DNA from: Sipunculus nudus
Lineage: Eukaryota; Annelida; Sipuncula; Golfingiida; Sipunculidae
Assembly (NCBI GenBank): GCA_026874595.1
Contig: CM049313.1
Coordinates: 69,680,659 to 69,744,658 of the forward strand
Direction: 5' to 3'
DNA length: 64,000 bases
Within the stretch, counting starts at the first letter, position 1. Every line of letters starts with the position of its first letter. This document shows, one piece after another, positions 6,301 through 58,800 of this stretch. Below the pieces are notes generated by a model. That model was not told where the DNA came from, did not search any database, and worked only from the letters and a program-made list of their open reading frames with translations. A program made the position numbers and the translations under genes.

Positions 6301-9300
6301 TTGCATTAACTGCTGACAGGACAGTAATGTCCTTAAATGCACCACAGTTTCAGCATGTAGGCTAGATTCTGCAGCTATTGTTCACAGAGTGTTGCTAACA
6401 TACTGTGTGTATCTTTGTGACAAGAATGGGAGATAAAAACTCAAAAGGGTCATGGTAAAGTGATAGAATTTATGTAAACAGTCATGACAGCTTTACTGTT
6501 GCTTGTCATCCCTCCAGACTTAAGTGTTATTCCCAGCAAATACACAGCTGATTGTTCATCATAATGTCAAGCACATGCTTAATATATTTGTATTGCAGAG
6601 AAGGAGCTGATGTTAGAAGCAAGCCTGGTGAGCAGTGCTTGTATCAGTGATCTGTCTGTCTCGAGTGTGTCCGACTTGATTCAGCGTGGTCATTTAGTTC
6701 AGGGGCTTGCCACCAGTCTGTATTCCCCATACACTACACAGCAGGTATGACCATGGGTGTGCTATTTATCAATGATTGTATAATTTTCTTCACATGAATG
6801 CCTATATGCTAGACATTCTGTGATAGGGACTTTGACCAGTTTGCTTTTACATTACTTTTATGATAATTCTCAGCTAAGATGCCATATATTTTATAACTGA
6901 TATTTCCATTTGATGAAGTAAACGTGTACATTGATAATATCTTATATTAATCCCAGATCTTATGTTTGTGCATTTTATCTTCTCCAACTTATTGTGACCT
7001 TTCAGTGGATTCAGTGCCCAGGTAGGGTTGAGGATATTATTTACACTGCCTGTATATTCACTTTCTTGATCCAATAATATGATTTTATTAGCACATGTGG
7101 CTACACTTTATAATAGATTATATGGCATGAAATGGTTCCTGTAACTGATGCATATGTGGTCCAATGGACATATAGTGTATATGATAGTTGTTCACCACAA
7201 CAGTTGAAGAGCATAATTATATATATAAGAAGACTATTTTGAATCCCCTGTCAATATTACATCAGACTTTGCATTAGCAGATTACATACCCAGTATAAAT
7301 ATTTTCTCTAATCCATATGTGATGTTCTTATCTTGTGTAGCAGGCATGGTCTGTATCTGATGTTCTAGTTTTCAGTAACTGTGATCTATATTATTATTTA
7401 GGTGTGGCATGGTGAAGTACAAGATGAGAGACTTGGAGATCTGTCATGTCAGTCTGTACAGGACAAATTGAAGCAACTGCCCTACGTGTATCAGGCACTG
7501 ACACTTAACGATGTATCATCCCAAGCCTTGATAAGTCCCACCCTGGAACAGCTGCAAGATGAACTGGTGTTTAAACTCAGGAAAGGAGATCAAATAGGTC
7601 AGTATTAGATATATCTGTTGGACAGATTTCAAAATATTGATATTCTATAGATAATGTGCGTATCACACTGGTTGTGTTGTTTTCACTTGGATCTGTGTGT
7701 GTTTATGTGTGTACTTATCACAGCAACTCAGGACAACTGGAAAAGTTTAAAGATTTTAATGGAACATGGCACATAGATCAGTAGAATGAATATTTACCAC
7801 TACATACCAATTAATTCTCCCTCCCTTTTTGCTGTGGTTCTGTCTTTTTGACACTTCATAAACTTAAAGTCTCTAAAGTATACAGGAAGTGATAGGGGAT
7901 GGACCCCCGGAGGATCTTTTTATGCCCCCGCCACAAAGTGGCCGGGGCATATAGTTTTACCCATGTCCGTCATTCCGTCCTTCCGTCCTTCTGTCATTCC
8001 AAAATCAAACAGTTGTACAGACTTTTTTTCGCAATGCCTGCAGACATTGGCCTGATTTTTGGTGTGTGGGCAGATAATGACCAGTTACAGATTGAGTTCG
8101 AGTTTCGTCCCAGTTGACCTACTTTTGACCATTTTACGGCTCCTTAACTTAGAAAATTTCATGAAAAATAGAAATTTTCATGACGAATACACATGTACGG
8201 ACTTTTTTTCGCAATGCCTGCAGATATTGGCCTGATTTTTGGTGTGTATGCAGATATTGACAAGTTACAGATCGAGTTCGCATTTCGTCCCAGTTGACCT
8301 ACTTTTGACCGTTTTACGGCTCCTAAACCTTGAAAATTTCATGAAAAATATAAATTTTCATGACAAATACACATGTACGGACTTTTTTTTGCAATGTCTG
8401 CAGATTTTGGCCTGATTTTTGGTGTGTGGGCAGATATTGACCAGTTACAGATCGAGTTCGCGTTTCATCCCAGTTGACCTACCTGAACATAGAAAATTTC
8501 ATGAAAAATATAAATTTTCATGACAAATACACATATACAGACTTTTTTTCACAATGCCTGCAGATATTGGCCTGATTTTGGTGTGTGGGCAGATATTGAC
8601 CAGTTACAGATCGAGTTCGCGTTTCGTCCCGGTTGACCTACTTTTGACAGTTTTACGGCTCCTTAACTTAGAAAATTTCATGAAAAATAGAAATTTTCAT
8701 GACAAATACACATTTACGGACTTTTTTTCGCAATGCCTGCAGATATTGGCCTGATTTTTGGTGTGTATTCAGATATTGACTAGTTACAGATAGAGTTCGC
8801 ATTTCGTCCCAGTTGACCTACTTTTGACCGTTTTACGGCTCCTAAACCTACAAAATTTCATGAAAAATATAAATTTTCATGACAAATACACATGTACGGA
8901 CTTTTTTTAAGCAATGTCTGCAGATATTGGCCTGATTTTTGGTGTGTGGGCAGATATTGACCAGTTACAGTTCGAGTTTGTGTTTCATCCCAGTTGACCT
9001 ACTTTTGACAGTTTTACGGCTCCTGAACATAGAAAATTTCATGAAAAATATAAATTTTCATGACAAATACACATATACAGACTTTTTTTCGCAATGCCTG
9101 CAGATATTGGCCTGATTTTGGTGTGTGGGCAGATAATGACCAGTTACAGATCAAGTTTACATTTTGTCCCAGTTGACCTACTTTTGACCGTTTGATGGTG
9201 CCCTAACATAGAAAAGTTCATAAAAAATAGAAATTTTCATAACAAATGCATATGTATGGACTTTTTTTCCGCAATGCCTGCAGATACCCCCCTGATTTTT

Positions 9301-12300
9301 TATGTGCGGGCAGATAATGACCAGTTACAGATCGAGTTCGCTGTTCGTCCCGGTTGACCTTCTTTTGATTGTTTTACGGCTCCTAAACAATAAAAAATTT
9401 CATGAAAAATATAAATTTTCATGACAAATGTACATGTACAGCCGTTTTTAGCCCTCAGCTCATAGGCTGATGGGCTATTGTTGTGACCCAAGCTGTCCGT
9501 CTATCCATCTGTCCATCTGTCTGTCCGGTGTCCGTCCGTCCGTTCCGCGTCTGTTAACTTTTACCTTGTGAGCGGGATGTTTCTAAAAGGATACACGGTT
9601 GGAATTTTATTTCATCAGTGAAGATGTATATCGATAAAATCTCGGTCAAGTTTGAAGATGGGTGACCTTGACCCATTTTCTACATTTTAGAGCTGATTAT
9701 AGAAAAACACTCAGAAGCTTATATCTCAGGAACCATTGTGTCGATTTTCACAAAACTTAATATGATCATTGGGACTGATGGTCTGTAGGTGCTGCACAAT
9801 TTTGGTGGTGCCACCTGCAATTTCTGATTTTTTAATGAAATTTTATCAAATTTTTCAATTTTGGCCTTTTGTGCAGGATATCTCCAAAGGTATTCAACAC
9901 AGGAACTTCATTACTTCAGTGCTTTTGCATCATATTTACAAAATCTTGGTCAAGTTCAAGATGGGTGGTCTTGACCTACTTTTCAAGGTCACAGAGCTTA
10001 GTATAGAAAAAAACTTAGGAGCTTATTTCTCAGGAAGCATTTGGTGGATTGTTATAAAACATGGTACATACCTCTCCAATTTAAATTTATAACTGATTAT
10101 CAGCTTTTGCTAATATTCTAGTTGTATTACGTAAACATAATTGTGAGCTGTTTCTGTATTAATGAGAATTTTCTCTGTTAAAGTTTATACGCCAGAGTAA
10201 GCCAACCGAAAATTTTCCCTTATTGGGCCTATTATCGCCCATCCAGCCTCGTTCCCATGTATCTAGGTCACACTTCCGTTACCCATAATCACATTTTCTT
10301 CTGGCGTTCGCCATGATGGACGTGTGATCCCGCTCTGCGAGATTCGTCCACTGTTGGGTTTGTACTGAGTTTGCCAACTGAACTGTAAGTTGTCTTCTTT
10401 TTTCCCTTGCCCGCCCTGGAGAACCCCACTTATTGTGGCTCTTGTGGTTCTTAATCCCAGTTGGGACTCCCACCCCCTTGTTTTCGTTGCCGCTCCTTGT
10501 TTTCACTGCCGGACTTGGGCGTCTGACCAGTGGGCCCTTTCCTGGATTGGGCTCATTCCCCGGTACTTGGGGGTTCACCCTCCTGTATTCCATTGTCTGA
10601 CCCCGTGGTTGTCTCCGAGGGGTCGGCGGGCCTACCCTGGTTGACCGCACCACGGACTTGCTGCGTTCACCGTCCGTTTCCGCCGGTCCTGTCACCTCTC
10701 CAGTGGTTTAGACAGTTATATCGTTGAATTCTCATTCCCGGAAACGGAATTCTTTCCCCATTCCCGCGGCCTCCCGTCCTGCCAGCACATCTGCCTATTC
10801 CATATTACATTATTGTCCCGGGTTTGTTAATCACTTGTGTCGGATCTCGACGATTCGTCTAGACCCGATTCTGTCCGCCCGGCGCCCTCGCCGGCGCCCC
10901 GGTACTTTCTCCCCGGCCGTTCTCGTCGCCGGCTCCTCACCGGATTCCTTCCTTATCCCCGGGGCCAGCTGGAGCCGTCCCGCTGGATCGCCCGGACCTT
11001 CCTGGTGTGCAGGTAAGTGCGTCGGTCCCTACTGCCTCCATTCGGGGCTGCCGGCCTCACCTCCGGTTCCTCCGTCTGCCGTCGTTACTTCACGGCTGGC
11101 CGGCTCTTTTTTTCAGTTACCATCTGCTGTGCGACCTGCGGCTCCGGTTCCTGTGCCTTCCCGGATGGTTCCTGCTGCTGCTCGTTCCCCGGCTTCCGGT
11201 TTCCAGCCTCCCGTGGCTCCGGCTCAGCGGGTCTCTCTGGCTCCGCCTACACAGGGTTCTCCAGGGTCCCCGACTGCTCAGTCAGCCGATCCCGCCCTGG
11301 CATCAGACCAGTGGTCGGCGATCGCGCTGCGCCGCCAGGCTTGGCGTCCGCGCAAATCTGCTCTGTCAGCCGATCCCGCCCTGGCCCCAGACCAGTGGTC
11401 GGCGATCGCGCTGCGCCGCCAGGCTTGGCGTCCGCGCAAATCTGCGCTTATGGACCTGGAGGCTACCTCCACACAGGAGGCTAACCCTAGTGGTCCGAAG
11501 TTCCATAGGTACAACCTCGGACTTCCTCGGCGTCGGCGGCCGGTTCTTCTTTGAATCCTGGCCCCTTCATTCGCCCTCCACAGTGTGTCTGGTATTACTG
11601 ACCGCACGGGGGATCTCTTCCGTGGGCGCCCCGCGGTCGTCTCGGGGTCTTGCTCTACTGGGGCCCCGCTTCCGCCTGGTTAGGCTACACCTTGGTCCCC
11701 CGGTACCCTCGGGAGTTCCCTTGGGTACCGGGCCCCCGGGCTACCTGTTCTTTCGCTTGCTCCCTTCTCCTGAGCTCCCGGATGTTCAGTCTGCTCCGCT
11801 GCGCCTCGTGTCCTGCCTGGCCGAGCCGTTTGCGGACGGTCAGTCTTTAATTCCATCCTCTGTCCAGTTTTCCGATCGTCACCTGTCGGATCTGGAGGGG
11901 CTCGGCCGGCAAGCGGCCGGTATGGTTTACGACTTGCAGGCTGTCCCTTGTTTACTCGCCGTTTCCGGACACGCTCACTCTCCCGGACATATGGCAGGCT
12001 TCTGCCCATTCTGGGGCTGTGTTACATTCAGGTCGTTGGCGCCCGGTTGTTAATTGCATCTTGTTACGCCGCCTGGCTTGCATTCAGTCATTTATGCACT
12101 TACGGCCGCGGCTTCTCTGACGGAGTTAACCGAGCTTTATTCTCCGCCTTTCCCGGTTCCCTGCTGTTTGGCGGCCAGTTACGGCCTCTCTTTGACCGCG
12201 CCTTGGCGCGCTCAGATCGTCAGGCCCGCCTCCGCTTGACCTCCCCTGCGCCTCGGCCTTCCTTCCGCGTTCCCCGCCTTCGGCCTCCGGTTGCAGCTTC

Positions 12301-15300
12301 CGCTCCGCCGCGTCGCGCATCTGCTACCTCGTCACGTCCTTCAGGACGTTCCAGCCTTTCTCCGCCTTTCGTAGTGCTCCTCCCACCGAGGTTTGACCGA
12401 GAAATGACTCTCTAGCTCCGGTCGGCGCTTGGCTCCGCGACCATTTTCCCCGCGTGGGCGGGTTTCACCTCCCAGCGGTTAATTCTCAGCGCCCTCCAGT
12501 TCGGGTTCCGTCTTGCGTTTAGCACACTCCGCCTCCGTCCGATCCGGCAAAACGCCTCGCTTGGCGGAGGCCCTTCAATCTATGTTAGACAATCGGGAAA
12601 TAACGAGGTTTCCCCATCCACCATGGGGTTTCCCTCTCGCCTTTTCTTGTTCCCGAAGCGCACAGCCGTTTGCGCCCGATCATGGACCTGAAGCGCCTCA
12701 ATTCGTTCATCCGTCCGCCCCCGTTTCGGATGTTCATTATCCATGCTGTACTCCGCATTGTTCTGCGGATGGATTAGGCGTTCATATATAGACCTTACGG
12801 ATGCCTTATTTCACGTTTCCATCCTGGGTCCATCCGTTCGGGATCCACGTGGCCCCCTGGAATTTACCATCCTTGGTCACGCGGTCCCGAGTTCTCTCCG
12901 TTCACTGGGCATTTCTGTGCTCCCTTATCTGGCCGATGGCTTGTCCATGCGGCCGCATCGCATCGCATCGCTCCCGGGTTCTCAACTTACTTCGGAACCA
13001 CGGCTTCCTGGTCATTGCGGCGAAATCTCTTCTCACTCCAACCCAGTCACTCCAATTTCTGGGTGTCACGCTCGCTTTGGCGTCCGGCACAGCGTGGCTC
13101 CCGCACGATTTTACTCTCACGCTCTGCCGCCTGATTCGTTCCTTTCTCCCGAGGCGCCGTGTAGACTCGCGCCCTGCGGCTTCTCTCCACGGTGCTCTCA
13201 ACCGGGCCGCGTCTTTCATCCCGTTCGGCTGCCTGTACCTGCGTCCGATTCAGTCTATCTTGCGCCGTCACGGCCTTCTCCGGTTAACCTCGGTTGTACT
13301 ACGATCCTCCCGTTTCGGCGCACCTGGCGGTCCCTTCATCCCTGGATGGACCTTTCCTGTCTCCTGCGCGGCATTCCTTTTCCAGGGATGTCGATTGCAC
13401 CGTCTATACCGATGCGTCTCTCCTCGGTTGGGGGGCCCATCTCGACGATCTTCGCGCTTCCGGGATATGGTCCCCGTCGGAACATCTGCTCCATATCAAT
13501 TTCCTCGACCTGCGTGCCGTCTGTCGCGCCATCTCCCACTGGTCTCCCTGCTTGATTGGACGTCCCATTCTCGTCCGGCCCGACATTCCCACGGTTGTGG
13601 CATATATCAACAAGCCGGGCGGTACTCGGTCTCCCTCGCTCATGCAGGGGACTTACCTTTTGTTCGATCTCTGCCTCTCTCTCCGGGCATCAGTTCATGC
13701 ATCCCATCTTCCGGGCGTGTCGAACATCCTAGCAGACGCCCCTTCTGCATCCGGCGTCCCTTCCTTCCCCGCCGCTCCTTCCGCTCCCGGTTATTCGGAG
13801 TGTTTTCGCTCGCCTGGGGTGGCCGGAATTCGATCTGTTCGATTTTCCGTCCCCCCCCCCGTTCTCGTGCCTTCCGAGACGCATCTCCGTCCCCTCGCAA
13901 CCGTCTCCCCGACACGCCGCCGTCCGGGTGGTCTCACCAGTTTCTCTTGCGTTTCCGGGGCCTCCTCTCCTCCGCCGTGTCCTTCTCCGCTTGTCCTGCG
14001 CGGACCAGACTACCCTGCTTCTCATCCTTCCGTTTCAACCTGCGGCTCCATGGTTTCCTCTGTGGCGCTCGCTTCTCTCTCGCCCCCCGCTTATACTACC
14101 GCTCCGCATCGCGCTCCCGTCGTTACCTCGAATGTGTCGCCCGTTTCGGTCGTGCCCTCTATGCGCATGCGTGCTCTCATCGGACACCTCAAAGGATCAG
14201 GGCATTTCAAGTCCGGCTGCTCTCCTTGCCTCGGCTCCCCGTTGCCGTTCTTCTATGACTCCCGGTGGCGTCTCTTCACGGAGTGGGCGTCTTCCTGCGG
14301 AATCTCCCCTTTAGATCCGTCGCTTGCGGCTGTTTTGGATTTTTTCGTGTTCTTACTGCAGGATAACCTTTTATCCTATCCCTCTCTGCGTGGCTATCGC
14401 GCCGCCCTGCTGTCGGTGCTCCGTCCGCTGGGTCACGCTCGTGTCCTTCATCACCCGTTGGTGTCGGACTTTCTCAAGGGGGTTCAGGCCCGTGCTTCTC
14501 GTCCTCAGTATGTTGCGCCTTCCTGGCGCCTGGACGTCGTCTTATGTCACCTCCGGGAACCCCCTTATGTGCCGTTGCGTTCGGCCCATCTTCTACCTTT
14601 GTCTCGGACAACGGTTTTTCCTCCTAGCTCTTGCCTCGGCAGGTCGCCGTTCTGAGCTTCCTGCCCTCGTGGCTGATTCGAAATTCCCGCAATTTAAGGC
14701 CGCCGCTTTGTCGGCCACCCTACATTTTCCTCCGGACTTTTATAGGAATTATCACCATTTCGATAACCCTCCATCTGCTTGGCACGTTCCGGCACTCCCT
14801 ACCGGTCCGTACCGTTCTGGGGATACCCCTTACCCGGTTCGTGCGTTGGGGGGGGGGGGGGGGCGCAAGAAGATGTTTATTTCTGCAAAAGTCACATCTT
14901 CCAATTAGGTGATTAGCCCTTTCACCATTAGTGTGTGACTCAACGCTACTATCGTCGTCGCATATGAATCAGCTTCTCATTCCACATTAGACCAACTTCA
15001 CTTCAAGGCCCATGACATTCGAGCTATTTCGACTTCCTTGGCCCATTTCTCCGGGATTTCACCTAATCAGTTGGTCAAGATGGGATACTGGATATCCCCA
15101 TCTCCGTTCATACGCTTCTATCTGAAAGATGTTCCGCTCCAGGCTTCGGGCCTCTACTCCATGGGCCCTGTGATCGCGTCGGGTGAGGTCCTACAATTTT
15201 CCAGGCCTTCTTCTTCCTCTCCGTTGGTCCCGCCACCAACGTGGACTGCTGCTCCATCACCGCACTGAGATTCCTCGTTCCAGCGTTACAGGTAGGTGCC

Positions 15301-18300
15301 CCCTCCCCAAGGCATGTCTGTTTTTTTCTCATTAATACAGAAACAGCTCACAATTATGTTTACGTAATAAACCCCCCCCATTCCCTCCCTGTGAGGTTTT
15401 GTTAGTAAACTGTTGTGAGCTTTTCTGTATCACAAACATCGCTCCCTCCTAGTCCTCTTCCTTACGCCTTCGAAAATGTGATTATGGGTAACAGAAGTGT
15501 GACCTAGATACACGGGAACGAGGCAGGATGGGCGATAATAGGCCCAATAAGGGAAAATTTTCGGTTGGCTTACTCTGGCGTATAAACTTTAACAGAGAAA
15601 ATTCTCATTAATACAGAAAAGCTCACAACAGTTTACTAACAAAACCACCATTCACAGGGAGGGAATGGGGGGGTTTTGCAATGCAATGCTTACAGATACT
15701 GGCCTAATGTTTGGTCTGTGGGCGCATAATGACCACTTACAGATCGAGTTCGCGTTTCATCCCAGTTAACCTATTTTTGACCATATGACAGATCCTGAAC
15801 ATTTCATGAAAGACAGTGTTGCTTGATAATGACCCGTTACAGATCGAGTTTGCATTATGCCCTTTTGACCATACAACACCTCCTGAACTTAAAAAATGTT
15901 ACAAAATTTAACAAATGTTTCTAATTTGCCCCAGGCGGGGGCATTCGTGTCATTCCGACACATCTAGTTTAAATTAAGGTTATTCCCAAATCCATGTCAT
16001 AAAAAACCGGAAGTGAAGGTTGCTGAGGTTGGCTTCAAATAAGTGAGGATAAATATTTGCGATTCCCAGTTCTTCAGTGTTTTGCAGGGGTTTCATTTTT
16101 TGTGATTTACCATACAGTAACTTGCACTATGTACATATAAATTATTAAATCAGTTGCCTAATATATATGCAAAATCTTATCATACTTAAGGTAACATCAT
16201 CAGGAAATCCTTTATATGATAGAGACAGATATAAAAGATAAAAGTATTGGTTTAAATTTTTGTTATCATGCATTGAATTACAGATAACTTCAAATGCATG
16301 CTAATATATATTGATGCACAATTTACATGAAATGTTTTTGATGCTATAGAATAAATTACTGTCCATAATGGCCTATGATGTCCACTTTTGAAAATACATT
16401 GTGCAAGAAAATGGTAAGTTTGAGTCATCCTTGTAATTTCAAAAACCTATGGTTGGTGTAGTTACTATGGTTTTGACCACAGCATGATTGATACACAATA
16501 ATAACTATGTTAAAGCAAAGTTTTAAAATTCTTGTTTCTTGTTTATGCTCAATTCATTGTCTGTCTTACAGTAGTTAGTTTGTTAGGTGCTTAGATCTGG
16601 AGATATTGGACACTTATTCCACAAAATCAAAACATCTGTGAAAAGTTTTGAATTGACTATGTAGAGTAGACATGAACAAAGCTTCAAAGTATTCTCTCCA
16701 CTCTCAGGTCAGGCTCGTGACAAAGGGATTCTGGGATCAACAAAAGAAGGCCAGCATGTACTGGAACTGGATGTATCCACCTACCTCCAGCAGCACAGAC
16801 CAAGTCAGGCAGTGCTGGCATTCCTGCTGCACCAGTTCCAAGCCAGCCAGGGGGGACCTGGCAAAACCAGGTATCATTTAGAGTCTTGTTGGCATATCCT
16901 GTGTGTAAGACTGTCAGTCATCAAGGTCTGTGTGGCTGTCATGGCTGGTTGCTATTCAGATGTGACCCTAATTTGACCATTATTTGTGTGGTCTCTTGTG
17001 TTTTATGTGCACTCAGAGTTTTGTTCAATATATTTGTATTTTACTATGTCATGTGTAGGTGAACATGATTGTATTACACAGACAGTAAGTAATAAGAATT
17101 ATAAATGTTATATTTATTATCATTATTATTGTACTATGTTTTTGACTTGGTTCCCCCGCCGCCGAGTTCGTTTCCGGAGAACTCCTCTGAGACTACTGGA
17201 CGGATTTTTCCAAAACTTACACCAATTATCAGGTCACATGTGAACTGGTGCCTTACTAATTGGCCTTGACCTCTGACCTTTCCTCTCTGCCCAGAGTCCG
17301 TTTGTGCGTCTGTTTCCAAACATAATCCCACATATCTCGGGAACCGTTTGACCGATCAGGAAAAAAATTTGTACAAATATAGCCCTTGGATAGCTTTATA
17401 ACATACACAAAAATGGTGTCCCCACCTGCAACAATTTTTGCACAGTGTCCATCTGTTCCTCTGCCTTGGGTTAAAATCACTTATATCTTTGCAGTGGTTT
17501 GACTAATTCACCTGAAATTCGGCATGCGTATACATCCTAGATAGCTTTCTTGATTTTATGACAGATGGCGCAACCTACATTCACGTTCACACTGCAGACA
17601 TCCAAGCTCATATCTCGGGAACCGTTTGACCAATCAGGAAAAAAAATAACACAAATGTAGCTCTTGGATAGCTTTATAGCGTACACAAAAATGGTGGTGC
17701 CACCTGCAGCCATTTTTGCACCGCATTCATCTGTTTGACTGCCTTGGGTTAAAATCATGCGTATACATCCCGCATAGCTTTCTTGATTTTATGACAGGTG
17801 GCACCACCTACATTCACGTTCACACTGTAGACATCCATGCTTATATCTCTGGACCTGTTTGACCAATCAGGAAAAAAAGTCCACATAAATGTAGCCCTTG
17901 GATAGCTTTATAACATACACAAAAATGGTGGCGCCACCTGCAGCCATTTTTGCACAGTGTCCATCTGTTTGTCTGCTGTGGGATAAAATCACTCATATGT
18001 CTGCAGTGCATGGTTTGACTTTCCCACCAGAAATTTTGCATGTGTATACATCTTGGATAGTTTCTTGTTCAAATAACAGGTGGCACCACCTACAGTCATG
18101 TTTACGTGGCAGACATTCATTCTAATATGTAACACATGTAACTCTATTTCCCCTTGCCACTCAATCCATGCCTCTCTTCACCCGTCCTACTCTGATTTTG
18201 GTGGATACACCTAGTCGCTTGTCGACTACCCGTATTCTAGTTATCATCATTATTATTATTTTTATTATAAAGTGATATTATTATTATTGTTATTATTGGT

Positions 18301-21300: not shown

Positions 21301-22789
21301 AATTGATATAAATACAATAATTAATTAATATAATTAATAATTAATATATGCATGTTGCATATGTAATTGCATATGTAAAAGGCATTAATAAAAAAATTCA
21401 TGCATGAAAAAGAATAACAGAAGCATGTAAACAAAAGCCATGAGCATTTAGTGCATATTGCAAAAACTCATCTTCATACCATACATCAGGTCTGGCAGAT
21501 AGCAGCACATTAATGGTGACAGACCTTGATTCAGCGATCACCTCAATCTATCTGTTTTTTGTTTTTGGTCCATTATTTTTCTTATGTTACACTTTATGTA
21601 ACAAATCTTACTAAGATCCACTGATTTATGGAGTAACTTGTGATTAAAGTACAAATTTCTAGCATTCCAAGTCTCATTTGGATCTGATCTTCCGAAAAAC
21701 TCATTTCATGTTCATAATTGATATTTTTTTATTATCTGGATTTAACAAAAAATACATTTTAAATGAAATAAATATTATCTAGACTTAGAAAAGCATAAAA
21801 AAGATTTATGATTACTAGATACAGTGTTATATTCATTAATGATTAATCACAGGCTGTTATCAGTAATATGTTAATATGATTACATTGTAATCACTAATGA
21901 AATGAATGACTTTTATGCTTGCTGGTTTCATGTGCTGCTTTTCCTGTCCTATTTAGGCAGCAATATTCATTAACTAAATATTCACAAGAATTATGCACAG
22001 CCTAAATTATTCTTAGCTATAATGCTTTAACTAACACCACACATTGCTTGATAATAGTCTGTTCCACCTGTGGGTGCCCATTGAAATTTGGCAATTATCC
22101 TCTTATTAGATAATATTATCACACTCTATGATATTGAAGCTGAAGAGGGACCTACAGCCTAATATGAGGGGTAAAACATCATAACAAAAACCAACTTTAT
22201 ATTTTACATGTTTCTGGTCGTTATGAAACTTTTAGCCAAGTGACATGGCGTCTGTCATGGGTTATGGCAGCCTCACTTTGATAGTTAGATGAGTTACATT
22301 TTTAGCTGAGCTGACTATAAGTCATCTGAGCTATAGTCGTGGTCCATTGTCCGTCGTCCGTCTGTCCGAATGTCAGTCCGCAAGACTGGCACATTTCAAA
22401 ACCTACGAATCTGAAATTCGGAATACAGTTAGATGTCCCAAAAATCTCCTACTATGCCAAAAATTGGGTCAATAGGACTTCATTCCTTCGAGATATTAAG
22501 GAAAAACCTCAGTTTTTTATTAGAAATCTATTTTCACACTTCAGGACTACGTAATATCAAAACCACTCGTCTAGTTCTCTTCATATTTACCATACATATT
22601 CTTCTATATAATTCCTATGTACATGCCAGAAATTTAGTCTGTATTTTATAATTTTAAAAGTTATGGGCCCAAACATAATGGACTTTTTAAATATTAGCAA
22701 AAATATAAATTTGGTACCTTAAATTTTGCCCAAGTTTGACCATGGCGTGTTCTTTCTTGTAAGAACATTTGATTTCTTGTAAGAACATT

Positions 22790-22840
<51 letters not shown>

Positions 22841-46800: not shown

Positions 46801-49800
46801 TTTGTTTCCAGATGATAGCTCCAGGTTTTATTGACACATGGATTTCAAACATGACTTACGTATGGCCCACCACTAAAGCAAGAACCTATATGATTTTGGG
46901 GTCATGAGGTAAAAGGTCAAGACCACAGTACCCACTAATTCAGAAAGATTGTGGATGCATTTTAAGCCAAACTTTTCATTCCAGACCTTTCATCTTGCAC
47001 ATATAGCTGAGCTGCCAATAGGGGAAGATTCTGATTTATTTGGGGGTCACAAGGTCAAAGGTCATCATCACAGGGGCCCATCTGTCCACATATTTGTTTC
47101 TGGATGATAACTCCAGTTTGGATTGACATATTGGTTTCAATTTTGAATTATATATGACCCACCAATATTGTAAGAACCCTTTTGATTTTGGGGTCATAAG
47201 GTCAAAGGTCAAGGTCACAGGACCCATTTCTTTAAAAAGATTGTTGATGTATTTTTATCCAAACTTTCTGTCCCAAACTTTCTATCTTACAGATGTTGCT
47301 CACCTTCCAAAAGTGGGGGTAACTTATGGATTTTGGGGTCACAAGGTCAATGGTCAAGGTCATGTTGGCCATCTATCCACATATAAGTTTCCAGATGATA
47401 ATACAAGTTTGGTTTGAAATATTGGTTTTCAAACTTGACTTGTATATGGCCCACCACTAAAGTAAGAACTGTTGATTCTGGGTTCATGAGATCAAAGGTC
47501 AAGGTCACAGGACCCACCACTCTAGAAAGATTGTGGATGCATTTTAAGCCAAACTTTTCATCTCAATCCTTCCATCATCAACATATGGTGCACCTGCCAA
47601 TAGGGTAAGTTTCCTTTTGATTTTGGGGTCACAAGGCCAAAGGTTAAGGTCACAGGGCCCATCCATTCACAAATTAGTTTATAGATGATAACTCCAGCTT
47701 TGGTAGACAGGTTGGCTTCAAACTGATCACAGGACCAATATTTTGGAAAACCTCATAAACATATATCCTTAAAGAAAAATGCAGCTGAGCATCAAGACCC
47801 ATGGGTCCCAAGTGTTTATCAGGATTTTTATATCAGTTTTCAGTATGGCTCCTGCTGTCACTATTATAATTTGTCTGAGTTTGATGAGCAAATTTACCTT
47901 TTTCAGGTACTAGGACAGACCTATAAGTGGGTTTGCTGTCAAGCAGATTTTGATCTCCTTCATCAGATTCTGAACAGCAGCAATCAGGCTCGTTACCAGC
48001 TGGCTAAAGACTTCATCCATGTGTGTGGCCTGTCTGATGCTCAGGTAAACAGTCAGTAATAATAATAATAAATATATATTTATAAATGTTACCTCAACAG
48101 TCACTTGCTATTACTTTCATACACAATTTGTTATTATATTTATTTCATTTTCTGCATTTAAACCTCTTTAATTATTTTTATTTTCATGAATATGATTATC
48201 ATTTCTAACTAGAAGATTAGGAGACCACTGCCTTGTACAGGTCTACACTCCTCTGATTTTACCCAGATCCAGTGTGGCTTCAATGGTAACACTTCCAGCC
48301 TCTCATATTAATTATTAGCTCAGCTGACTGTAAGTCATCAGAGCTATAGAGATCACCCTTTGTCCGTCGTCCGTCCTGCCGTCTGGCCGTCTGGCCCTCT
48401 GTCCGTTAACAGGGCACAAATCGTAACCATTAGACCTAGAAACTTCTAACTGTACATCCAGGGAGGTCCTGGGCTATTCTCCTTGGAAACCTGAAATTAG
48501 GTCATGGTTACCTATATTTTGTGACTTACAGGTAAACATGTTTTTGAGCACCCAGACAGTCAGATGGGGCACTAATTGTATCTATTAGGTCTAGAAACCT
48601 CTAACGTGACATTTTGGGATATCCTAGGTAAATGTCCTTTGAAACCTGAAACTAGGTCACTGTGACCTATACTCTGCGACCTATAGGGAAAAGATCTCAT
48701 ATGAGCACCCTGAATGTCAGATGGGGACAAATAGTATCTGTGGAGCCTAGAATCTTCTAACACAATATTTGGGAATTTCTAGGCAAATCTCCTTGAAAAC
48801 CTGAAATTAGGTCATGGTATCCTATATTTTATGACCCACAGGCCAAAAAAAAACATGATTTTGTGTAACCTGAATGTCAGATGGGGACAAATCGTATATG
48901 TGAGGCCTAGAATCTTTTTACTCAATATCCTGGAAGTTTCTAGGCAAATCTCCTTGGAAACCTGAAATTAGGTCATAGTGACCAATATTTTGTGACCTAT
49001 TGGCCGAAAACATGATTTTGAGCACCCATACAGTCAGATGGGGCACAAATAGTATCCATTAGGCCTAGAATCCTCCAACATGACATTAAGGGAGGTCCTA
49101 GTCAAATGTCCTTCAAAACCTGAAATTTGGTCACTGTGACTTATATTCTGCGACCTATAGGAAAAAGGTGTCGTATGAACACCCTGAATGTCAGATGGTG
49201 ACAAATCGTATCAGTAAGGCCTAAAATCTTCTTACACAATTTCCTGGGAGGCTCTGGGCAAATCTCCTTGGCAACCTGAAATTAAGTCATGGTGACCTAC
49301 ATTTTGTGACCTACGAGACAAAAACCTTATTTTTAGCACCCTGAATGTAAGATGGGCACAAATTGTATCTGTTAGGGCTAGAATCTTCTGATGCAACATC
49401 CTGGGAAGTCCTAGGCAAATCTCTTTAGGAACCTGAAATTAGGTCATGGTGACCTACATTTTTTGACCTACAGGCCAAACAGGTTTTTTAGCATCCAGAA
49501 AGTCAGGCAGGGCACACATTGTATTTGTTAGGCCTAGAATCTTCTAATGTATCATTCTGAGATGTCCTTGGCAAATGTCTGTAGAAAACTTAAATTAGGT
49601 CACTATGACCTAAATTTTGCAAACTTTAGGAAAAGAAGTCATTAAGGCACCCAGACAGTCAGTCAGGGCACACATTGTATCTGTTAGGCCTAGAATCTTC
49701 TATTGTGACATTCTGAGACGTCCTTGGCCAATGTCCTTGGAAAACTGAAAATAGGTCACTGTGACCTATATTTGGCAACCTAATAGAAAAGATGTCATAT

Positions 49801-52800
49801 AAGCACCCAGACAGTCGGACAGGGCACAAATTGTATCCATTAGGCCTAGAATCTTTTAATATAAAATTCAGGGAGGTCTTAGTCAAGTGTCCTTGGAAAC
49901 CTGAAATTAGGTCATGGTGACCTATATTGTGTGACCTGTGGACTGAAAAATGGTTTTGAGCACCCAGACAGACAAGGCACAAATTCTTTCCATTAGCCCT
50001 AGAATCTTCTAACATAACATTCAGGGAAATCCTTGGCAATTCTCCTTGGAAACCTGCAATTGGATCATGGTGACCTATATTCTGCCAGCTATGGACCAGA
50101 AACATGATTTTGAGCATCCAGACAGACAGGGTACAAATTGTATCCATTTTACTTGGAACCCTCTATTGTGAAATCAAGGGGGGGTCCTGGGCAGGTCTCC
50201 TATGAATCCTGAAATTTTTATTTTCTGTACATTTTTTCAACACTAACTTTAGCCATAGGCTATTCTCACAGACAATATATAACATTAATATAAAAAAATG
50301 AGCACCCAGTCTAAATTAGCTGAGTGTCATGGCCCATGGGCCACTTGTTCTGGTTTCCTGTTATGTTATGGTGCAACAGGAATAATTTGTCAGGCAGGAT
50401 AAAAAATGCAAATTAAATGCTTCCACATTTCATATGTGCTGTTCTACAAAATACGTAAAGCAATTTACCAAATAGATGGAACTTTTAAGGCTTGTATTCT
50501 GTGACTACACACAGGAGAATTAGTTAAAGATTTGTAGTACAAACTTGCGCATGTGACTTCATTCATAATTTTTGTTTGAGGACATTGATGACTGTACTTA
50601 TGAACCAAATTTTTTCAGCCTAATTCATGGGGCCACCCAATGTTACACAACTGGAGCGTCCAAAAGCCCAACAAATGATAAAACAAGCTAACAGTGACAA
50701 CGTCCAATGCATGTTCATGACAAATGAAAAAAGAAGTACAGTTTACATGATTTGTGTCAGTTCAGTAGGGGTCATGACAGATTTTTAGATAAGGACCAAC
50801 CTTTTGGGGAATCTCTGGTACCAGGCATCTTAAGTCAGTTTATGCATTACAATTAACTCCTATAACCATTTTGCAGTGTTTCATTTTAATAATATTTGTT
50901 CTTATAAATTCATATATTTTGTTTACGTCTGACCCTTCATATAAAACCACATGTTAATAAATTTATATTTACTGACGATCTATTAACCAGTTAGATTAAG
51001 TCATGCATTTGCCATACCATTTACGCCTTATTATTGTGTCATCAGATATTCATATTAAGAAAGAAATATACTATAAATTGTTTTCAGACATCAGAAACAA
51101 TCCCTTTCGTGATGTTAAGTTTCTTGTTTTATCTATGGTTGCGAATTTGGAACATCAGAAGCTAGTTACAATCATTTTTAATGCGCAATGTGCTGATAGG
51201 TTGATAAAAAAATTGAACATACGAGACGTAATCATTTCTACTTAGAGAGGACACGTCTATGGTTGATAAAAGCTAGAGGAAAAGAAAGGAGAAGCGCAAG
51301 CTTTGGGAATTGATTCTGTAGCCAAAGCTAAGATAATTTATTTTGTCACCAATGAAATGTGAGGGGACAGGAGCCCTGCTGCTCATTAATACTTCTGAAA
51401 ATGAAATCCATCACCTAGTAGTTGTGAGTACTGGTTACGGTTTTAAATGGGAGTCCTTTTATATTTTGACTGGCTAGAAGGTTTTCATCTGGGATTTTGG
51501 CAAGTCTAGGTGTGGTTTTTAAATGGATATGTGGTTTCAAAAAGAAGAAATAAGGTGGGCATAATTTTTTGCAACAAAGTGTTAATCTTGGCAATAAAGC
51601 AGTAACTCTTTAAGTATTTATACATGCAACACATGTCAGGTAAGGGTATATTAGTGGTGTAATGACATGTTTTCATCTGTCTTTAGGTGTGTGGTTTCCT
51701 TTCCAATTCCATCCTGCAGATATTACAACAGCTCCACACAGTAAAGGACCAAGGTATTTGATTTTACTGCAACTTAATATCTCTTAACCAGTCTATTTTG
51801 TACTATATATGAATGTAAAATTATTGCACAGTGAACTTGTGGTAAAGTCATGAAGTATGAAGACCTATTATACCATGTTTTATGTAGTACAGTAGATATT
51901 ATTATATAGTTACCATATTCTAATTAGTCATAAGTTTTATGTTTTACAGTAACCATGGTACTGTGTACTCTTAACCAGAAATCCTATCATATTCAGTCAT
52001 ATAACCACCGTATAATGAAATAATATCTATACAACAGAGGCTGTGTAATCTTAAAAATTAACTAACCATGCATTTTATCAACTTAAACCAGGTACCTAAG
52101 CCAATGTGAAAGATGTGAGATTTCACAGTGATCAGTATCATTGCCTAATAATATGGGTTATATCAGCCCAGTAGGTGCCTATATCAGCCCGTTGAAGTTT
52201 GTTTGGGTCAGTGTGTCAGTCCCGTGATGAACTTGACAGTGAAACTATTTCTTTTACATTCAGTGATAAACATGATGTCCATGTACATATGTACATTTAA
52301 ACAACATGACAGGTAACATGAAGACCACCTAACCATGTACCATCCCAACCATATTGTATATACATCATCTTTTTAACACAATATACAGTACAAATAAATG
52401 TTCCTCAATTAAAATTTTGGAAAAACAAATTTTTGGAAAACAAGATATGTAAATTCAAGGTTTGACTGTATCATAGATACTTACAAGATTTACTTTATTT
52501 ACAGTTTCCCGCAGTATGTCAAGCAGTGCTAGTGACCAGGGCATCCACCCTGAACTTATCTCGCTCTGTCAGGATCCTGCTGTGTTAGGTCAGCGCTTGT
52601 TGGAGTCCTCACAGTGCTACAACGTAACAAAGCTTGACCTCTCACAAGCCAGTAAGTCACATTATCAGGGGATAGTGCATTGCTATAAGATTGATGCTTT
52701 CAATTTTGGAGTGGCAGGTCTTGGCTCAGTCCCAATCAGAGCCTCGAAACTAAAATGGTGAAATATCAGTTGATCCTTTGCAATGAACTCTAATGTCTAA

Positions 52801-55800
52801 ACAACAGGTTATAACTTTTATACACCAATGTATGATGGGAGGTATTTTAGTATACCCATGTTCTGTCAGCCTGTTAAATTTTAGTGACAGTGCGATATCT
52901 TATTGGGGCTTTGATGGATTTTCATGATACTCATAATTACTAATTACCAATTATTTATCTTGCCTGACTTTTATTAAAGGCAAAATCCATGCATATTTAT
53001 TAAGGTCAGAGGTCACTGGGGTACTTTGTCATGGCCATGATAACTAACAATGAATCAATGGATATGAATAAAACTCACTAGAAATATTAACCAATATTAT
53101 AACTCTCAGTGCTTAGTTCGATTTCCAGCAAAATCCATGCATATTTAACGAGGTCATAGTTCTCCAAACTTTAGAGGCACCATTTTGACTTACCAAAAAT
53201 CTTTTGGATTTTGATGAAATTCATATATATTTACCTATAGTTTTTCACCTGAATTACATTCTCAGCAAAATTCATGCATATCTAAAGAGGCCAGAGGTTA
53301 CCAGGTAAGCGACAAGCATATAATACACCATTTTTGGTGATCTTGTTGATTATTCTTTGCCCTAAGCACATTAAACCTGAATTCAAAGTTATTAATTATC
53401 ACCCATCAATCCTTATCATGTGGTTACCTTTATCTTCATTCAGTAGACTGTTATCCAGTCAGCCCTTGGGCCTTTATTTTTCTATACAAAAAAAAATAAT
53501 AACTTTAGTTAAATCAAAACTAGATAATCACATATAGGTTTGAACACTGGAACCCCACAATTACCACTGACCAAAGTGGTGTTAATTTGGGTGTGGTCAT
53601 ATGTAACATCTTGGTTACTTTCAATGTCATCTTAATGTTATTCATTCAATAAAGTGCTACCTGCAGACAATATTCAAAGAAATGAGCTTAAGGAAATTTC
53701 TTCTTTATTTTTTAAATTAGATCCAATAGATGAAATTATATATGTTTTTTTGTCAATCTTGAATGAGTCTTTTCATTAAAAATATAAGACTATACATCTT
53801 TAATGAATTGTGAAAAAGTTATTATAACTAAGCATGGCTCTCTCTATGGCACGGCTTTGTGGCATACAGTTGTGTCTGGAGGTGGTTGGAACCAGAGAAC
53901 CCTGAGTAAACCACATCCTGGGATGGGCCACTCCATGGCCATGCCTGGGACTGAACCTGGGTCTCCATCAGACAGAGCCAATCATTTTTACCCCATGACT
54001 GTCCATGACCCCCAGTGCCTGAACCACATGACACTAACATTTTATTTTGTTTATCAGACACAGGACTGGAGGTTGAGCTCCTGGTGTGCGCTCATTCCTG
54101 CTTCACCAAGGCCTGTAGTATGGAGGGGATCACCAGAGTACTCAAATGCTGCCAGATCTGTGCCACAGGGCTGGCTCAGGCTGAAAAGTACTCACTGATG
54201 GTGAGTACTTATCTCTGGCATGTGACAACCACAAGTTAATTCCTATAAACAGCAGTATTACACATGTGTCCAGTGTTCAATAAAATACACAAGATACTGT
54301 CAAGAATTTTCTTTAAGATACCAATAATAACATGGTTTACCAGAGATAGAGTCCAGGTGCTGCTTTTAAAGAAGATTTAAATTATTTTGACACTAATAAA
54401 AGGCTTATAAAAATCATGGTGCGGCTATTGATAGATGTGCAACCATAAAATGAGGATTTACTGTAGCTTGAAAGATTCATGAGAACTGATGATGTGATAA
54501 AAAGAGCTGATGAACAGGATGCCTTGTTCACTTTACAATATACACAGCCTGACCTGGGGGACACCAACAAAATCTAGAGGTTCAACCAGCTGTGATATTA
54601 TTGATCTGCATTAGCATATGTCTGACACTTGCAAAAGTTCATTGATCCAGGGACATGAGAATAAAGCAGGTCTGAATACTGTAAATTTAACATTGTACTT
54701 TGTATTTCTTGATAGATTCAAAGTTATCTTGATTGATGATAGAAATACACATTGACAAATATAACACATATATAGCTACAAAAATATCTGTGGGTGGACT
54801 TTTGACTAAAAAATCATTTTTGGAAGATAGCCATATTATTATTTAATCATCTTTCCATAATCCATATTATAAGGCTCCCAAAATGTCCAGTGTCATATTT
54901 AATTTTTAAAACATGCATTTTTAAAACAGGCCTTTTTAGCAAACCTGTGTGCTATGGTGTTGAAGCATCTGTCGTATGTCTTGCATCTGTACATCAACCA
55001 TAGCTATCTCAAAAATTGCAGGAGCTAGCATCACAAAATTTTTTTTTTACATATAATCAGTCATCTTAAAAACTCTATCATATTTTGTTTTTTCACTGCA
55101 TTTTCAGAGATTTTATGGGGAAAAAACTAAAAAAAGTTTTCAAAATCTTCTTCTCCAAAACTGTCCAGCCAAATTGTCCAATATTTCACAGAAATGATCC
55201 CTAGAACAATCTCTCTCAAGTTTGTTTATATGGTTAGGTGATTTTTTGCCGATTTATGGGAGGTTGAACTAAGTCATCTGTCCAAAAAAGCACACTAAAA
55301 TAAAAATCTCAGAAATGGCTGGTGCTATCATCACCACATTTTGTGCCAATGTTTGTCACATGAGTCATATTTGAAATTGAGGTATTTGTGGCGCCACCTA
55401 CATTGATCTGTTTTTTACAAACAAAATGTAATTTGAGACTCTTCTAGCTTATACACTGTTTTATAATGAAACTGTTAAGCTGATTGGTTTAAACTTTACA
55501 AGAATTATTGTATCCCCAGACAAAGTCGGGATACTATGGTTTCACAATGGTGCCGCCGCCGCAACAGAAAACCTTGTGAGCGGGATAACTAAAAAAATAT
55601 TTCACTGATCTTTTTTAAACTTTACATTTGTATAGATATAGGTAATGGGACGAACCCAATAAAAAAGGGGTCATGACCTATGCTAGGAGAGTGACCTTGA
55701 CCTTGAATAGGTCCATTTTTGCTGAAAATAACACAAATTCTTAAATATCTCAAGTAAGCTTGCATGGACTGGTCCAAAAATCAAGGTGACCGAAGATCTT

Positions 55801-58800
55801 GGATAGCCTTGTGATAAACCGGAAACTGGTGGCGCCACCTATTATCCTTTTCTTGTTTTTAACGTCTTTTAATACCCCCATAATTGCCACTTGACAGTAC
55901 TGTAAGCATTATAAGTCAAAAACTAATGGACAGATTTCTTTCATATTATGCACATGTAGAGATGGGTTATGGGATGAGGTCTATTTACATTTGGGTCATG
56001 ACCTTTACCATGAGAGTGGCCTTGACCTTTAATGTGTCCTTATTTGGTGAAAATCACACACCTCTTGTGATATCTCCAGTGTTGATAGCCATATGGATTT
56101 TAAACGTGACTTATGTATGGCCCACCACTAAAGTAAGAACCCTATAGGTTCTAGGGTCATGATGTCAAAGGTCAAGGTCACTGGCCACTGGCACAAGATA
56201 CTGTGGATGCATTTTAAGCCAAACTTTCATCCCAGGTCTTCCATCTTGAATATATAGCTCACTTGCCAATAGTGGATGATCCATATAAATTTTGGGGTCA
56301 AAGGTCAAGGTCACAGGAGCCATCTGTCCAAAAATTTGTTTCTGGACGATAATTCCTGCTTTTATTGATGTATGGATTTCAAACTTGACTTGTATATGAC
56401 CCATTGGAAAAGCAAGACCCAAATTGATTTTGGGGTCATGAGGTCAAAGGTCAAAGTCACAGGACACATCTTTAAAAAAGATTGTGGATGCATTTTCAGC
56501 CAAACAATTCATCTCAGATCTTTCATCTTGCAAATATAGTTCACCTGCCAAGAGTGGAAGACCCGTATCAATTTTGAGGTCACAAGGTCAAAGGTGAAGG
56601 TCACAGGAGCCATCTGTCCAAAAATTAGTTTCTGGATGATAATTCCTGCTTTTATTGATGTATGGATTTCAAACTTGACTTGTATATGACCCATTGGAAA
56701 AGCAAGACCCGAATTGATTTTGGGGTCATGAGGTCAAAGGTCAAGGTCACAGGACACATCTTTAAAAGATTGTGGATGCATTTTCAGCCAAACATTTCAT
56801 CTCAGATCTTTCATCTTGCACATATAGTTCACCTGCCAGGAGAGGAAGAACCCTGTCAATTTTGAGGTCACAAGGTCAAAGGTGAAGGTCACAGGAGCCA
56901 TCTGTCCAAAAATTAGTTTCTGGATGATAATTCCTGCTTTTATTGATGTATGGATTTCAAACTTGACTTGTATATGTCCCATTGGAAAAGCAAGACTGGA
57001 ATTGATTTTGGGGTCATGAGTTCAAAGGACAAGGTCACAGGACACATCTTTAAAAAGATTGTGGATGCATTTTCAGCCAAACATTTCATCTCAGGCATTT
57101 CATCTTGCACATATAGTTCCCCTGCCAATAGAGGAAGACGCCTGTCAATTTTGAGGTCATAAGATCAAAGGTGAAGGTCACAGGAGCCATCTGTCCAAAA
57201 ATTAGTTCCCGAGTTGATAATTCAAGCTTGGATTAATATATGGATTTCAAACCTGACTTATATATGGCCCATCAATAAATCTAGACCTCTATTGATTTAT
57301 ATATAAAAGTGGATGATCAATATCAATTTTGGGGTCACAAGGTCAAAGGTCAAGGCCACAGGAGCCATCTGTCAAAAAATTAGTATCTGGATGACAATTC
57401 CTGCTTTTATTGATGTATAGATTTCAAACTTGACATATATGTCCCATTGAAAAAGCAAGACCCCAATTGATTTTGGGGTCAAAGGTCAAGGTCACAGGAC
57501 CAACATCTTTAAAAAAGATTGTGGATTGATAGATGGAAGAAACAATAATTTCTTGCCAGGTGTCAGTATATGCTGCTAAAAATGCGGGCCTATTCTTAAA
57601 GGGGGGGGGCGTACTATGTCTTGGGATACTCTGGCACCTGCGGTGCCAAGAAATGTCTAGTTCTATGGTAGGGTTCTGCTAGTATTATTAGAATATATTG
57701 GGTAAATGCAGCTTTTAGAAAACCAATCAAAAAGGCTTTCAGTGTTGAAAACAGATTTGAAAACATGCCAAGTTTCAACATGCCAGGGCAAGAGGTCACT
57801 CAGTTCAACGAGGTGAGGTCCAGACATCACCTTGGCAACTGGCCTGGCGAGACGCTGTGTCTAGACGTCTTAACAATGGTCTAGACACATTGTCTAGATA
57901 AAGATTGCCCAGATTAGAACCAGTGGACATACCTTTCAACTGTTTGAAAAAACCTGTTTTGCATTTTTAGCGAATCTGTGAGCTTATGCGATGGTGTGGC
58001 GTTGTCCCTATTCCATCTAAGACAGCTTTCTCAAAAAGGGCAGAAGCTAGCTTCACCAAACTTTTTGCAAAAAATTAGTCATCTAAAAAATTTTATTGGA
58101 GTTTGCTGATTTTTTGGCTAACTGCATTTTCTTAGATTTTATAAGGAAAAAGCTAAAAAACATTTTGTAATGTTCTTCTCCAAACCCATGCTGCCAAATT
58201 GTCTGTTCATCTGTCCCAGTAATACCTCCTGGCAAAAAGAACATATTCGAAATATCCTGACTGATACTTCCTAGTTTTAAAATGCCCTAATCAGAAATGT
58301 GCAGGTCCAAAATATCCATTGGGCTGAAATCATAATGACTAAGGTAGATATGCTGTTGTCTGTTATTGTATGCTCCCCAGGGAGCTGAGAAAAGCTACAA
58401 GAATGACTAAGCCCAAAAGACCAGGAAGGAAAAGTTTAAAGTGCAATGAGACTGACATTGTTTGTGATTTCAGACTGTAAACCATCACCTTTACCTTTAC
58501 CTTCTATAAACTGAGGAATAGGGGACAAAAAATTTATGTTGTTTACAGAAATCAGAGATTTGACCTTGAAGATCAAGATGAAGGTCACCAGTTTTTTTTA
58601 TCTCCAACCTTTGAGAACTTTTTTAAATAACTTGTGAAAAAAAATATTTGCAACACTTCTCTTCTTATTGGGTTCACAAAATTTTGCCTTTGGCTAATTT
58701 GACCTTGAAGTTCAAGGTCACCAGTTTTTTTATTTACTGTCCCAAGATCATTGTAAAAACATTTTTTGTTTCAAACTTTTAGGAATAAAAACATGCAGTG

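Follow-up and report, generated by a model that had tools for sequence, protein, structure and literature searches.

Helentron-associated repeat families in a Sipunculus nudus locus and full-length elements that share the ends of three of them

Background

Helentron-associated elements (HINEs), non-autonomous derivatives of Helentrons, are a kind of element already known, among others from oyster (PMC7492417). The description of the oyster Cg_HINE elements places a satellite-like central array between a left module, with a subterminal repeat, an inverted repeat, a microsatellite and, in several, GTCY motifs, and a right module with a subterminal repeat and a palindrome; it also gives a preference for TT, no target duplication and several lineages per genome. 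None of the 10 autonomous oyster elements could be related to the HINEs, so that what moves them was left open. The account of HINE, DINE-1 and Helentron by Thomas et al. 2014 (PMC4067079) describes subterminal palindromic repeats, a 3' palindrome, insertion into TT with terminal Ts, and a partner encoding Rep, helicase and endonuclease. The bivalve elements Pearl, CvA, CvE and Cg170 (cited through PMC7492417 and PMC11136912) are Helentron-like with central satellite-like arrays, and are likened to ours by description only. The FoHeli (Helitron2) elements of Fusarium (PMC5148889) have a TNAT/T target in two groups (a slash marks an insertion boundary throughout) and, each in some groups, hairpins at both ends and an inverted transposase; the account gives them no endonuclease and describes no satellite array. 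Here we analyse six repeat families, A to F, in a 64,000-nucleotide stretch of the Sipunculus nudus genome (contig CM049313.1, here C8:69680659-69744658; the window), and search for their relatives in the whole assembly of 1.43 Gb in 153 contigs. Contigs are cited as C1, C3 and so on, and are distinct from family C.

The families resemble all these systems in the features just listed, except that they differ from the Fusarium elements in their endonuclease matches and arrays. Unlike the HINEs in the oyster description, three of them have full-length elements with both ends and the array in common, and they show CTAG ends and two target classes that we did not meet in that account, in which a word search returned no "CTAG". 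A 3' CTAG, present in four families here, is one that we met in PMC4067079 only for a Phytophthora proto-Helentron, and the inverted coding strand of our family D partner has a counterpart there in one Drosophila Helentron. Unlike the elements of that account, two of our families have a five-base target, THATT, and the arrays also occur in autonomous copies. Titles and opening lines of abstracts in the literature listings contained no description of such partners in a bivalve, which is no proof of their absence. What is added here is full-length elements for three families, an antisense one among them (D), two target classes, an A-B composite and a frozen palindrome; the question left open in oyster becomes testable, now that three families are tied to full-length Helentrons.

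Results and discussion

Full-length elements for three families

We hold with high confidence that families A to E, and probably F, are HINEs, non-autonomous Helentron derivatives that would be mobilised in trans, as rolling circles, into TT. This reading is drawn from the ends and array repeats shared with autonomous elements (A, E and, in inverted form, D), from the domain architecture of those elements, from the target motifs and from one TT insertion. The first-pass annotation of the window, which had likened the families to HINEs and proposed a search for Rep/helicase elements with the same ends, is thereby supported: such elements exist for A (two loci), for E and, with the coding strand inverted, for D, and each shares both ends with its family.

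A Helitron Rep domain profile searched genome-wide, with 150 of 195 candidates scored, gave 143 matches, and several open frames exceed 2,200 amino acids (aa). Partners were sought in 53 stretches fetched beside Rep or endonuclease matches (9 Rep loci, followed by 9, 20 and 15 tails). The two family A partners, G6 (12,384 bp) and G7 (12,003 bp), are complete elements with different flanks; over the long stretch that aligns they are about 97% identical. In both, the order is a TTTTT/ATGCCCC palindrome, a GTCY tract, a 180-bp array that is 78-88% identical to the window A array, the coding region, and a 3' end of the form GCGGGGGCATTCGTGTC..GACACATCTAG/TTT; the first 58 bp of the window A copy match G6 without a difference, and the first 70 bp match G7. 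The family E partner, 14,884 bp on C17, carries the family's 5' end and repeats together with a 3' end of E type, contains one frame that is open over 2,342 aa, and harbours a nested C HINE; a relative on C5 is 98% alike in the fetched part, which lacks its 5' end. The family D partner (C3:82014770-82023666, 8,897 bp) is 86% identical to D over its first 831 bp, comprising the 5' end and repeats, and 87-89% over 45-46 bp at the 3' end, and carries its Rep, PIF1 and endonuclease matches in the antisense direction. Two loci with related proteins, on C8 (98% identical) and C15 (71%), have D-type repeats in the corresponding place.

By Pfam matches, the domain order is DUF6570 and Helitron_like_N, PIF1 and Exo_endo_phos in the A and E partners, and Helitron_like_N, PIF1 and Exo_endo_phos in the D partner, which corresponds to the Helentron architecture described in PMC4067079. 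Helitron_like_N and PIF1 exceed the Pfam cut-off in all three, the Rep assignment being by Pfam match. Exo_endo_phos, placed after the helicase, scores 37.8 bits in A, over the curated cut-off of 24.5 bits, and 24.2 and 22.2 bits in D and E, just under it, with best E-values of 2e-9, 3e-5 and 1e-4, respectively. In their helicase-endonuclease ends, the A and D partners share 34-37% identity, and the E types 27-34% with either, which bears out the earlier view that several distinct lineages are present. The full-length elements found for A, D and E very probably move those families.

Across the 53 stretches, E-type 3' ends occur in 14, A-type ends in G6, G7 and L070 (more weakly in L067 and L069), and D-type repeats in L058, L059 and L060. 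Several candidate partners were rejected. Reversed C or D copies in L043, L045 and L051 were judged to be separate insertions, since they begin at or near the HINE 3' end. Among D-protein relatives of 45-47% identity, the one on C6 has a whole C HINE beside the gene rather than C ends around it, the one on C12 a downstream C 3' end, reversed, with nothing on the upstream side, and the one on C3 only a weak reversed E-type end.

Further loci were seen in the same material. L063 and L065 bear endonuclease matches and a common CTAG end, CTGACCTGTCAGTTTTCTAG/TTT, pointing to another family. The G1/G5 type (L001-L004, L013-L014) has open frames of 2,235 and 2,426 aa and copies alike over more than 15 kb; G1a has OTU and endonuclease domains. 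The N-terminal part of the C17 E partner (L006:1-4527) matches Herpes_teg_N, by name a cysteine-protease-like domain, at aa 63-210 (45.6 bits, cut-off 25), where the G1 type has OTU.

A common layout in the window

The elements mapped in the window, all on the forward strand unless stated otherwise, are as follows.

1-817: family C element, its 5' part beyond the window; 3' end CCCGTATTCTAG/T at 817 (from self-similarity and sequence).
1097-2421: family C HINE, complete; TAATT/GTATCCGCC palindrome, hairpin GTAGTCGcttgtCGACTAC, CTAG/TT.
2707-2739: family E 3' end remnant; CAGCTGAGC..GCCCATGGGTC..CTTGT/TT, matching autonomous E-type ends.
7922-9449: family A HINE, left part; TTTTT/ATGCCCC..GGGGCAT palindrome, GTCY tract, 180-bp array.
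9450-10121: family B HINE lying within the T-run of an A monomer.
15674-15967: family A HINE, right part; subterminal GGCGGGGGCA, hairpin GTGTCattccGACAC, CTAG/TTT, 86-87% identical to the G6 and G7 3' ends.
17131-18240: family C HINE, 5' hairpin lost (GTACTATG), 3' end intact.
22304-27216: probable third E element, with D nested within (from sequence and inference); TTTTT/AGCTGAGCTGAC ... CAGCTCAGC..GACCCATGGGTCCCTTGT/TT, the same subterminal-repeat variant at both ends.
24357-25970: family D HINE; TTATT/GTATCGCC..GATAC, 326-bp array, GGCACCTGCGGTGCC hairpin, CTAG/TT; both ends and the repeats in common with the 8,897-bp element on C3.
30734-30945: family F 5' part, interrupted by C; TAATT/GTCCACTGC..GGGGAC, GTCY tract.
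30946-32114, reverse strand: family C HINE.
34307-35342: family B HINE, independent insertion; TTTTT/AGCCCTCAGC, hairpin CAGCttctGCTG, ATATTCTAG/TT.
35680-35880: family F, second copy, degraded.
43133-44290: family C HINE, 5' hairpin lost.
46267-47814: family E element with a GGTGGCGCCACC module and 290-bp repeats; 3' end GACCCATGGGTCCC; its 5' end and module resemble the 14,884-bp autonomous element.
48317-50348: family E element with a 156-bp array; 3' GCCCATGGGCCACTTGT/T; the array repeat also occurs in autonomous elements.
55510-57660: family D2 HINE with the D repeat and 290-bp repeats; TTATT/GTATCCCC..GGGATAC, CTAG/TT; 85% identical over 1,606 bp to an array beside a related endonuclease frame on C15.
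111-55839: 23 exact GGTGGCGCCACC palindromes (first at 111, last at 55828) in the B, C, D and E repeats.

The layout drawn in the first-pass annotation, a 5' palindrome, CCGTC/CTGTC tracts and a 3' hairpin before CTAG, was right in outline and needs correction at its 3' side. The 5' palindromes all lie where it had put them: A at 7922-7950; B at 9450-9476 and 34307-34333; C at 1097-1126 and 32085-32114; D at 24357-24383 and 55510-55534; E from 46267 and 48317; F at 30734-30764. Genome-wide, words taken from them, with a non-G base demanded 14-15 bases before, occur far beyond chance: 3,572 times for C (20 fixed letters), 3,437 for D (21 places, four free), 2,671 for A (one free letter) and 1,253 for B (two two-way letters), against none for any of the reversed patterns. 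The 3'-terminal 20 bases of C occur 16,006 times at no more than two mismatches, versus three in the control. The tracts said to follow the palindrome in A, B, E and F are borne out by GTCY density: per 100 bp there are 3 in A, 9 and 6 in B, 5 and 6 in E, and 6 and 4 in F, against a window mean of 0.69, whereas C (1) and D (0 and 0) are low.

A scan found a hairpin followed by CTAG in A, B, C and D, as claimed; the distance between the two, given earlier as about 10 bp, varies between about 2 bp, as in A, and 10 bp, as in a D copy. Family E had been misread at this end: it has a hairpin centred on CCCATGGG, usually followed by CTTGT/T and not CTAG, in the form GACCCATGGGTC..CTTGT/T or similar. 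A palindrome near the 3' end is thus present in A to D by the scan and in E from the sequence. Subterminal inverted repeats, formerly noted in A and C, were found there by motif search and are also readable by eye in B, in E and, with 11-12 of 13 bases, in D; the 3' end of F was not seen.

Two of the four near-full-length C copies (17131 and 43133) are without the 5' hairpin, as though a deletion had removed it from the base: GTA..TAC is joined as GTACTATG in the former and as TACTATG in the latter.

Target sites and an empty site

The families fall into two target classes: THATT/G for C and D (probably also F), and T-runs/A, the runs being of about five T, for A and B (probably also E). The flanks were all taken from contig C1 as exact pattern matches, 100 listed per family. 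For C the rule is sharp, with T at -5 in 100 of 100 listed flanks and in all 84 that were kept after removal of shared-repeat flanks; TNATT precedes 92 of the raw 100, and the non-redundant flanks have A at -3 in 95% of cases, T at -2 in 96% and at -1 in 99%, and almost no G at -4. On the 3' side of C, TT follows CTAG in 94 of the 97 flanks kept from 100 listed (raw, 97 of 100). For D, 96 of 100 flanks were kept (four repeats of one tandem flank were removed); T is at -5 in 92 of them and T..ATT in 81, while T.ATT makes up about 1% of window positions. TTTTT precedes 80 of 100 listed A copies. Both F copies fit THATT by eye, and the T-runs of E are from single cases only.

An empty site was found for one C copy on C1, which lies in a repeat, R3. 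Forty of 40 scored R3 places align across the joined flanks over 297-308 bases each, and all 12 R3 copies that were read letter by letter carry an uninterrupted TAATTGTT. The filled site reads TAATT/element/TTG, with only TT repeated. Since the R3 copies have the motif uninterrupted, the TAATT target predates the C insertion, which brought in, on balance, the element and a TT. The insertion between T and T without target duplication that had been predicted for these elements agrees with this site. In the joined-flank search R3 copies took all 40 scored places, and no match to repeat R2 was reported. Two other sources of empty sites were set aside: the G2a/G3 pair was too diverged to decide, and C copies in other repeats (L075, L076) gave no clean flank pair. 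An A copy nested in B reads T5/A/T3, compared with T5 or T6 in the window B copies, which fits a gain of two or three T.

The "very active rolling-circle system" of the first-pass annotation has indirect support, in that the best 40 of 1,190 candidate C 5' ends match the window copy at 97-100% identity and several Rep frames of more than 2,200 aa are open; movement itself was not observed.

Two observations concern the settings of individual copies. At C1:1407709-1418642, five D 5' ends spaced 2.6-2.8 kb apart have an identical left flank and form a tandem array of a D-containing unit. The flank CCAGCTACAATCATT on C1 stands exactly before 8 of the first 100 listed C 5' ends and in close form before 5 more, so C seems to ride in another repeat.

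Family B within family A

The B copy at 9450 had wrongly been taken for an independent insertion. In 93 of 100 listed B copies (one searched variant) the left flank is an A monomer, as it is at 9450, and six of the other seven lie in T-runs. In five of five fetched A-B composites the A sequence resumes after B, and the A 3' end is reached in four (L080 is too short). As B stands repeatedly at the same spot of the A monomer and A resumes behind it, we conclude that the composite has multiplied as a unit. A single chimeric element with an A 5' end and a B 3' end was considered and dropped, given that A resumes in all five.

Weighing the explanations

We propose that an autonomous Helentron, encoding an HUH Rep and PIF1 helicase with a C-terminal endonuclease, would supply its protein in trans. 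The protein would recognise the 5' palindrome together with the 3' subterminal repeat and hairpin, the stretch between the ends would be replicated as a rolling circle, and the product would be joined into TT, within THATT for C and D (probably F) and, for A and B (probably E), within a stretch of some five T. Judging from shared target class and end layout, B may use the A-type protein and C the D-type.

Several points weigh against this reading. No partner with B, C or F ends appeared in the 53 stretches beside Rep or endonuclease matches or in four more fetched for C, a result that, with 150 of 195 Rep candidates scored, does not show absence; C is without a partner although none of the families counted exceeds it in number. 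The coding regions of A and D are split into several frames, whether by introns or by decay, and the endonuclease matches of D and E fall below the curated cut-off. The emptiness test concerns one C site, with A, B and D represented by flank statistics and one A-in-B nesting. The gain of TT there fits equally well with insertion between T and T, the element bringing a terminal T at each end, or with a 2-bp TT duplication. Rolling-circle replication and mobilisation in trans are suggested by sequence rather than by observed movement.

Of the other explanations, Helitron2 elements, which would lack the endonuclease and have asymmetric terminal inverted repeats and a hairpin at either end, come closest, and we consider them improbable. 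Such elements would account for the layout and for targets of the TNAT/T or TTTT/T kind, which are reported for Fusarium and other Helitron2 (PMC5148889), and the D and E endonuclease matches just under the Pfam cut-off would suit them; against this stands the Exo_endo_phos match after the helicase in all three partners, over the cut-off in A.

A cut-and-paste origin is more improbable still. Miniature inverted-repeat or foldback elements moved by a terminal-inverted-repeat transposase, with a 2-bp TT target duplication, would explain why subterminal inverted repeats exist and why TT is present once in the empty site and on both sides of the filled one. The ends of the families, however, are asymmetric, with a palindrome at the 5' side and a hairpin with CTAG at the 3' side, nothing beyond TT is repeated at the tested site, and the elements with these ends encode Rep, helicase and endonuclease domains.

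Canonical Helitrons (Helitron1) can be dismissed almost outright: the CTAG of A to D (not E) has the CTRR form with a 3' hairpin and the Rep and PIF1 domains are present, but the elements start with GTATC, ATGCC, AGCC or AGCT instead of TC, use TT instead of A/T, and have a 5' palindrome and an endonuclease match. We therefore retain the Helentron/HINE explanation.

Related cores and a 12-bp palindrome

The cores of the families, at first described as unrelated, are in part distantly related. Monomer consensuses were compared by local alignment against 100 dinucleotide-model shuffles, with E2 denoting the part of E at 46448-46660. Same-strand z scores were 10.0 for C-D, 7.3 for C-B, 8.6 for D-B, 12.6 for D-E2, 11.0 for B-E2 and 4.3 for C-E2; with the palindrome GGTGGCGCCACC masked they ranged from 4.6 to 11.8, and the highest on the opposite strand was 4.1 (C-D). 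These scores indicate that B, C, D and part of E share an old, degraded module. For A, the 156-bp E repeat and the 290-bp D2 repeat the same comparison gave no convincing relation (highest pair 3.4, or 3.9 masked).

The palindrome GGTGGCGCCACC occurs at 111,729 sites genome-wide, compared with 14 for the reversed word, which is also a palindrome and of equal composition. The high copy number of C and D accounts for much of this figure. The explanation that we find the more probable is that this abundance reflects copy number only, the word being carried along in the C, D and B arrays with no role. About 16,000 C ends with several sites per copy could explain most of the sites. C monomers preserve the word exactly in only 11 and 8 of 19 cases, B monomers in 3 of 8, and by conservation its window is average in B (rank 125 of 295). 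Its ranks are high in C (18 and 28 of 268) and D (7 of 325), and 6 of 7 D monomers have it exactly, which argues against passive carriage. So, suggestively, does the alignment of five modules, in which all 12 of its columns are identical versus 16 of 119 elsewhere, the modules having been anchored on the word, which favours it.

We put forward only tentatively the converse idea, that GGTGGCGCCACC is a working site, for binding or for replication or termination, used by the protein of several Helentron lineages or by a host factor. If so, it would have been kept identical in four families whose repeats have otherwise diverged, hence the roughly 112,000 sites, and might explain why these elements retain a satellite; taken with the two target classes, it would mean that the arrays work within the rolling-circle machinery and are not passengers. 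Among the papers searched, the word is printed in one, on a chitinase.

Other features of the window

The stretch at 10125-15640, inside A and adjoining the 3' end of B, is GC-rich (about 58-60% in its middle) and by eye resembles a DIRS/Ngaro-type reverse transcriptase-RNase H element; it is bounded by 148-bp inverted repeats that are 98% identical (10151-10298 and 15472-15619). Three of its frames gave no Pfam match. Four reading frames of the window gene likewise gave no Pfam match above cut-off, and we leave the gene unnamed. A repeat just upstream of D2, at 55002-55508, carries TGTGGCGCCACC and recurs beside the Rep loci G5 and G7 (74-82%). The E-type repeats at 46429-49922 carry AGGTCANNNTGACC seven times, a word close to the textbook estrogen response element. 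Within the window there are 15 instances of GGTCAAGGTCA or its complement, most of them in repeats of D, B and E.

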